Assembly: GCA_025677815.1 (NCBI GenBank)
Contig: JAIXMP010000050.1
Span: forward strand, 169,180-233,179
DNA length: 64,000 nt
Reading direction: 5' to 3'
DNA from: Phascolomyces articulosus
Taxonomy: Eukaryota; Mucoromycota; Mucoromycetes; Mucorales; Lichtheimiaceae
A program made the position numbers and the translations under genes. The notes beneath the pieces are model-generated. The model did no database searches, was not told where the DNA came from, and was given only the letters and a program-made list of their open reading frames with translations. Numbering within the stretch: position 1 is the first letter of the stretch; every line of letters begins with the position of its first letter. Positions 46,789 through 47,716 of this stretch are shown one piece after another.

Positions 46789-47716
46789 ATGAAGTAAGCA
46801 TGGGGATAGAGGAGAAAAAAAAGGAACACACGAAAACGATGCAATAAACGTGATGAGGATGACAATACATTCATGGATCGATGGATGGATGAACAGAAAG
46901 AACGATGGACACGAAAACTAAATGGATGGATACTTTTTTTTGTTATCATTAGGCTCGAGATTTGCTCCTTCTCCGGCTACAAGATCTACCCCTCTAAGGG
47001 TAAGGTTTACGTTCGCAGCGACAGCAGGTAAAAAGAAATTTTGGTTCATTGTTTTTGTTATATATATATATATATCAATGAAATATATATATACCATTTT
47101 ACTGACTCTAATTTAATTTTTCTTATAGAGTGAGTAATAATAATAATAATAAAAACAGCATTCAAATTCGACGAACAGACGCGAAAAAGAAATTATAATT
47201 GGAAAAAAAAATAACGTGATAATTAACCCAGTGATATGAATATTTTTATTTTTATGACGAAAATGATAGACCTTCCGTTTCATTAACGGTAAGGCTGAAT
47301 CCTACTTCCTTCAACGTTTGAGCCCTCGTAAGATCCGCTGGACCCAAATCTACCGTCGTCTTAACAAGAAGGGTGTCACTGAACAAATTGTTAAGAAGCG
47401 CACCCGCCGTACTGTCAAGGCTGAACGTGCCGTTGGTGGTGCTTCCTGGGATGAAATCCGCGCCAAGCGTAACGAAAAGCCCGAAGTCCGTGCTGCTGCT
47501 CGTCAAGCTGCTATTGAGAAGAGCAAGGAAAAGGCTAAGGCTAAGGGTGCCAAGAAGGTAATTAGTTTGAGGATATTGGAGAGAGAGAAAAAAAGAAGGG
47601 GGGGAATTCAAGAAGAACTATTTTTGGCGTGTATATGGATATGAAAGTGAATGAAAGAAGATACGCAAATATTAACGAATGACCATCATTTTTAATATTA
47701 GGCTGGTAAGCAATAA
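46789..47716 (+). CDS. RPL24: 60S ribosomal protein eL24
   Basis: A component of the large ribosomal subunit near the intersubunit bridge. Exons are 46789-46793 (ATGAA only), 46953-47027, a required single base A at 47129, 47270-47557 and 47702-47716, giving 127 aa. The splice gives MK|LEICSFSGYKIYP, matching the family N-terminus. The protein runs on through VYVRSDSR, FRFINGKAESYFLQ, SPRKIRWTQIYRR, KKRTRRTVKAERAVGGAS and RNEKPEVRAAARQAA to a Lys/Ala tail. Joining 47027 directly to 47270 shifts the frame and stops soon after. Inserting A47129, which has an AG before it and GTGAGT after it, restores it. Coding bases favour C- or G-ending codons (TTC, AAG, GTC), unlike the neighbours, as expected for a highly expressed gene. 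Confidence 0.93.

Follow-up and report, generated by a model that had tools for sequence, protein, structure and literature searches.

How the coding exons of the gene for ribosomal protein eL24 (L24e) of Phascolomyces articulosus come to share one reading frame is the question raised by this locus. The gene lies on contig C57 of the 47.4-Mb assembly of this fungus, which NCBI places in Mucorales, Lichtheimiaceae, within the contiguous stretch of 64,000 nucleotides that was analysed (the window). Its product is related to solved eL24 proteins over most of its length, the best match being chain 9axt_Bi ('Large ribosomal subunit protein eL24B'; residues 1–124 of 127, E-value 2.1e-42). All features of the gene are on the + strand. 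Coding begins with exon 1 (46789..46793, ATGAA), which is set by the reading frame and by the identity of the joined product to the deposited protein P0001, followed by intron 1 (46794..46952; 159 nt, GTAAGC...TTAG) and exon 2 (46953..47027), which ends in phase 2 (GAC AGC AG; GACAGCAG/GTAAAA, where a slash marks a splice site). Exon 4 (47270..47557), so numbered since the element discussed below would be exon 3, starts in phase 0 (ACC TTC CGT; ATAG/ACCTTCCGT); it is followed by the last intron (47558..47701; 144 nt, GTAATT...TTAG) and by the last coding exon with the stop codon (47702..47716, GCTGGTAAGCAATAA). Direct joining of 47027 to 47270 is out of frame, yielding ...SDSRPSVSLTV... and a stop at codon 44, just as an earlier note on this DNA had claimed in saying that the two exons cannot be joined directly.

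The two flanking exons are off by exactly one base, both here and in a second copy of the gene described below. The 242-nt gap between them contains a single AG-N-GT, and the base enclosed in it, A47129, lies in the context TATAG/A/GTGAGT. With A47129 added, translation runs uninterrupted to the natural stop (MKLEIC...YVRSDSRTFRFING...) and the product is identical over 127 aa to P0001, in agreement with the claim of the earlier note that one extra base completes an Arg codon (AG + A). This codon, Arg27, sits in the conserved stretch VRSDSR-TFRF, and alignments to three solved eL24 chains have no gap at the junction; the base thus yields the conserved protein with no residue gained or lost. 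It divides the gap into intron A (47028..47128; 101 nt, GTAAAA...CTAATTTAATTTTTCTTATAG) and intron B (47130..47269; 140 nt, GTGAGT...GATAG), both with canonical GT-AG ends and of plausible length; the other introns of the two eL24 genes measure 159, 144 and 77 nt. A branch-like CTAAT precedes A47129, read by eye in the earlier note and in our reanalysis alike, and the exon coordinates, the position of the base and the lengths of introns A and B given in that note were all correct. With a probability of roughly 94%, we consider A47129 (47129..47129), the third base of Arg27, to be a real one-nucleotide exon between GT-AG introns of 101 and 140 nt, and probably a constitutive one. Its use in RNA, the order in which the introns are removed, the decay of mis-spliced products and the occurrence of this exon in other Mucoromycotina we infer from sequence.

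Whether such a site is to be expected by chance depends on the quality of its donor. In dinucleotide-preserving shuffles of the window gap (20,000 cases, with the first six and last three bases fixed and at least 45 nt on each side of the motif), any AG-N-GT was so placed in 12.8% of cases, against 0.045% (4.5e-4) for AG-N-GTRAGY; the latter frequency was 1.1e-3 for the gap of the second copy. A bare AG-N-GT is not rare; one with a good donor is. The 64-kb window has a single + strand match to HAG-N-GTRAGY, at A47129, and three matches on the − strand; the three remaining introns of the two eL24 genes are free of AG-N-GT. The longer pattern CTAAY..YAG-N-GTRAGT was found at 14 places on both strands of the 47.4-Mb genome (about 3.6e-5 per 242 nt) by a search that passes over very common words. 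Thirteen of these places lie elsewhere than C57:216287, for example C34:1396724; since the reversed-pattern control gave more places (57), they are probably mostly due to chance.

The strongest evidence for the one-nucleotide exon is a paralog with the same arrangement. This second eL24 gene was found by a six-frame search on contig C89 (region L007:444-1103), and both eL24 genes are among the 29 places in the genome that match the pattern of the exon 2 end. Compared with the window gene, its exons are identical at 67/75 and 272/288 nt. Exon 2 ends at L007:600 (GACAGCAG/GTAATA) and exon 4 starts at 801 (AATAG/ACTTTC), and the same single base as in the window gene is absent between them. The corresponding site, GATAG/A/GTAAGC with its A at L007:712, splits the gap into introns of 111 and 88 nt. 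Two further AG-N-GT in the paralog gap, at 638 (AG/C/GTTTTT) and 647 (AG/A/GTTGAC), are likewise able to bring back the frame, but with poor donors and without a counterpart in the window gene. Between the copies, intron A aligns no better than its shuffles (33 versus 36.9 ± 8.5), intron B exceeds them by little (22 versus 14.9 ± 6.3) and intron 1 scores clearly above them (−21 versus −32.6 ± 5.0). Outside the exons, the two copies are not wholly saturated, intron 1 being still alignable. Given the poor alignment of introns A and B, AG/A/GTRAGY has persisted through the turnover of most of the sequence around it, so that conservation of the element at the DNA level is documented for one homolog, this paralog. 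The deposited model of the paralog, P0003, lacks VRSDSR as well as the single base and is the exact product of using GTCCGT at L007:584 as donor. It is very probably wrong, the one-nucleotide exon restoring VRSDSR, and looks as if the annotation pipeline could not bridge one base.

The paralog bears directly on the proposal, made in the earlier note as a possible refutation, that the frame is broken by a one-base assembly or sequencing error and that the true genome reads AG/AACC or similar, with a single ordinary intron. The absent base would adjoin an A, and loss of one base from a short run is conceivable. However, the copy on C89 is without the same base and has its own AG/A/GTRAGY, so that the error would need to have occurred twice, on two contigs, each time with this element in the gap; moreover, the models of 18 further genera are damaged at the junction, though the causes need not be the same. 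Much of the force of the proposal is thus lost, and assembly error or chance is very unlikely as the cause of the arrangement. Equally hard to credit is removal of the whole 242-nt gap as one intron, for which GT-AG ends are formally available, with a −1 ribosomal frameshift supplying the base or with no full-length protein being made from the gene: the join AGC AGA CCU is not, as judged by eye, an X XXY YYZ slippery site, both gene copies have the same problem, and the deposited protein is full length, although a deposited model does not prove a product. Other single introns were also enumerated, with GT-AG or GC-AG ends and a minimum length of 40 nt, taking donors from exon 2 through the first 40 nt of exon 4 and acceptors as far as 60 nt into exon 4. 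Five such introns in the window gene and six in the paralog keep the frame free of stops, and all of them delete conserved residues.

A one-nucleotide exon at A47129 would place particular demands on splicing. Introns as short as these would be recognised by intron definition, and their removal would be sequential, since a single base leaves no room for an acceptor and a donor complex at the same time. Since AG is the end of exon 2 as well as of intron A, the context of the intron B donor, AGA/GT, is the same before and after removal of intron A: TTATAGA/GTGAGT becomes CAGCAGA/GTGAGT, and in the paralog the AGA before this donor is likewise unchanged. The donor of intron B may in this way keep its context in either order of removal, and the strong intronic part of the donor (GTGAGT, GTAAGC) may offset the lack of exon sequence of its own. 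Errors would be costly to the message. Skipping of the one-nucleotide exon leads to a stop at codon 44 and retention of intron A to a stop at codon 28 in both genes, while retention of intron B leads to a stop at codon 50 in the window gene and 34 in the paralog; mis-spliced products, stopping within codons 28–50, would probably be destroyed by mRNA decay. Probable stepwise removal, together with the back-to-back layout, brings AG/A/GT close to a recursive-splicing (ratchet) site, at which one intron is removed in two steps and no exon exists. A ratchet point, however, is a zero-length AG/GT that leaves no base in the mRNA, whereas here AG and GT are separated by one base that has to remain for the frame to be kept; this explanation is accordingly most improbable.

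Deposited eL24 models of relatives point to the same junction. Three protein searches (best 120 of 233, 354 and 766 matches) yielded 176 distinct proteins, which were scored by a pattern for the conserved motif at the junction and grouped by printed species name; Phascolomyces and Umbelopsis were confirmed as Mucoromycotina, and the other genera listed as such are taken to belong there. Among these best-listed matches, 47 of the 66 Mucoromycotina models are damaged at the junction and 19 are intact, compared with 3 damaged and 85 intact among 88 models from other named fungi. Sources without a species name, kept apart, contributed 22 models, 20 intact and 2 damaged (P0111 and P0159, both without normal sequence before the junction). 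Because FSGxKIYP is intact in 51 and PRKIxW in 61 of the same 66 models, the damage is centred on the junction. It affects 19 of 27 Mucoromycotina genera, and in Umbelopsis all six models. An earlier tally of the first 120 proteins had counted 33/52 damaged Mucoromycotina models versus 0/55 others; failures in the control group rose from 0/77 to 3/88 after the third search, whose query (P0125) itself lacks the six residues. Fisher values of 1e-22 (earlier set, 0/77 control) and 2e-20 (3/88 control) overstate the certainty, as the sequences are non-independent. Two of the three failing models from other fungi, P0164 and P0165, have the same six-residue skip, and the third, P0168, has one residue absent.

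The damage takes several forms. Eleven models skip VRxDSR, joining the point after [YF] to TFRF or a variant of it (ten by the first pattern, P0035 by a wider one), two read DSR-Y, as expected if an exon 2 donor AG/GTAY is translated, nine use exon 2 in the wrong frame, and 18 of the 47 fall into a mixed class. In eight models from five genera (Absidia, Lichtheimia, Rhizopus, Mucor and Rhizomucor), DSR is followed by V and then by S, R or C. Translation through AG-N-GTNNG would produce this: provided that AG is the end of exon 2 in these genes as well, Arg-Val requires AG-R-GTN, one base followed by GT, and S, R or C as the next residue is consistent with G as the fifth intron base. With intron B kept, the window gene would read DSR-VS, like the eight models. 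The one-base frame error of the direct join in the paralog (DSR-LSAS) is also seen in P0129 (Rhizopus) and P0137 (Mucor hiemalis), which have DSR-LSVS, and P0113 (Rhizopus stolonifer), one of the eight DSR-V models, has exon 4 sequence in the same wrong frame further along (RLSNS). In P0048 (L. corymbifera), the insert ...LNPFRLYCR-TFRF would be compatible with a branch-like CTAAY and a pyrimidine run, followed by TGYAG/R directly before TFRF. The 19 intact Mucoromycotina models fit either presence of the one-nucleotide exon or loss of the intron. DNA of relatives was sought by pattern in viral contigs (36 matches) and prokaryote genome contigs (29 matches), and none of the matches encodes a relative.

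These models also bear on a single non-canonical intron that keeps one base, either TA-AG retaining G47028 or GT-TA retaining G47269, with AGG in place of AGA as the Arg codon. Such an intron would give exactly the same protein, so that identity to P0001 cannot discriminate, and is formally possible in the paralog too. Yet TA-AG and GT-TA intron ends are extremely rare; moreover, such an intron neither needs nor explains AG/A/GTRAGY in both diverged gaps, and it leaves the DSR-V[SRC] models of other genera unexplained. We regard it as improbable: the TA...AG intron that the earlier note had named as a possible refutation is weakened by the conserved element, though on sequence alone it keeps a small share of probability.

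The reading of A47129 as a one-nucleotide exon, first put forward in that note, is thus borne out by the paralog, the identical deposited protein and the pattern of damaged models in relatives. The simplest account of the latter would be that the exon is common to Mucorales and Umbelopsidales, and its conservation across Mucoromycotina is likely but indirect. We lean towards the view that the exon arose before Mucorales and Umbelopsidales split and was retained in most Mucoromycotina, and in both copies where there are two; as every mis-splicing event shifts the frame, it may serve as a splicing-dependent brake on eL24 output.

Spliceosomal single-nucleotide exons have been published for plant APC11 (PMC4674806, PMC8831610), plant VPS55 (PMC8831610) and Fusarium CYP621A (PMC12940212), to which the eL24 exon adds a new case. 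The statement of the earlier note that such exons are very rare and that one is described in plant APC11 therefore stands as regards APC11, which is not the sole case given VPS55, CYP621A and the mitochondrial examples below. The APC11 exon of Arabidopsis and most land plants is alike in being one base, A, between two GT-AG introns, frame-essential, wrongly annotated and long kept (PMC4674806, PMC8831610), and stepwise intron removal was proposed for it (PMC4674806). It differs in belonging to a plant gene with a 422-nt gap and in having been proved by cDNA and reporter constructs, whereas the eL24 exon is fungal, has a shorter gap and is known from sequence. The land-plant VPS55 microexon likewise has a conserved GTRAGT donor, is kept in distant lineages and was missed by annotation; unlike the eL24 exon, which both P. 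articulosus copies have, it is reported as used alternatively in some plant lineages and as lacking from one flowering-plant copy (PMC8831610). According to that plant study, the reference annotations lacked the one-nucleotide exons in every species it covered (PMC8831610). Closest in kingdom is CYP621A, a fungal nuclear case inferred from out-of-phase exons, conserved in orthologs and, as its report states, confirmed by 18 SRA reads; its base is G (AG/G/GT), the gap is 139 nt and the gene is a rarely expressed P450 of one genus (PMC12940212). By contrast, the eL24 exon is an A in a ribosomal-protein gene and probably extends across Mucorales and Umbelopsidales. The authors of the CYP621A study present it as the second such exon and as the first from a fungal gene (PMC12940212), although VPS55 was described in 2022 (PMC8831610). 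The mitochondrial single-nucleotide exons are one in rnl of an Ophiostoma-group strain, flanked by group II introns (PMC12308204), and one in placozoan cox1 (PMC5436844). They share a single base between two introns, but the fungal rnl introns are of the self-splicing group II type and do not use the spliceosome. Recursive-splicing ratchet points, named in PMC4674806, share the back-to-back acceptor and donor and the stepwise removal, and differ in being of zero length. The eL24 exon is set apart from the published cases by gene class, expected expression level and likely age. Judged by titles or the start of abstracts, a search of a literature collection on single-nucleotide or 1-nt exons returned no ribosomal-protein case, and papers on microexons in Mucorales contained, by title and abstract, nothing on a one-nucleotide eL24 exon. 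Besides the rnl report, a second paper on fungal mitochondria came up, which only cites the Arabidopsis study. Searches of the same collection for papers on the Phascolomyces articulosus genome, on fungal 1-nt microexons and on a ribosomal protein L24 intron in Mucorales found none.

If the one-nucleotide exon is real, it lies in a ribosomal-protein gene, a class that is usually strongly expressed, and the spliceosome must use it accurately very often. The short introns and the two natural versions in one genome would make the order of removal, fidelity, and the choice between intron and exon definition directly measurable. It would also mean that many eL24 proteins deposited for Mucoromycotina carry errors at a conserved position. 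Further exons of this kind might be found simply by looking for residues at which the annotated orthologs of a whole clade break together. The description of eL24 as an essential gene in the earlier note is doubtful, as yeast reportedly survives without it.

Several minor observations concern other parts of the gene and its relatives. Intron A of the window gene contains two TA-repeat runs (47059-47094), able to pair as a hairpin in the predicted fold; the repeat is absent from intron A of the paralog. The folding energies predicted for intron A of the two copies, computed without shuffled sequences for comparison, were −13.3 and −11.3 kcal/mol, and the folds show no obvious shape in common. 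The models P0164 (Thamnocephalis sphaerospora) and P0165 (Saitozyma podzolica) have their skip directly before SFRL or TFRF, which may be accidental or mean that the intron layout is more widespread; the two hint that the same layout may be older still. Finally, the first coding exon is ATGAA, with five coding nucleotides, in both copies (46789-46793; L007:444-448), and the odd or absent N-termini in several models of relatives fit such a tiny first coding exon.
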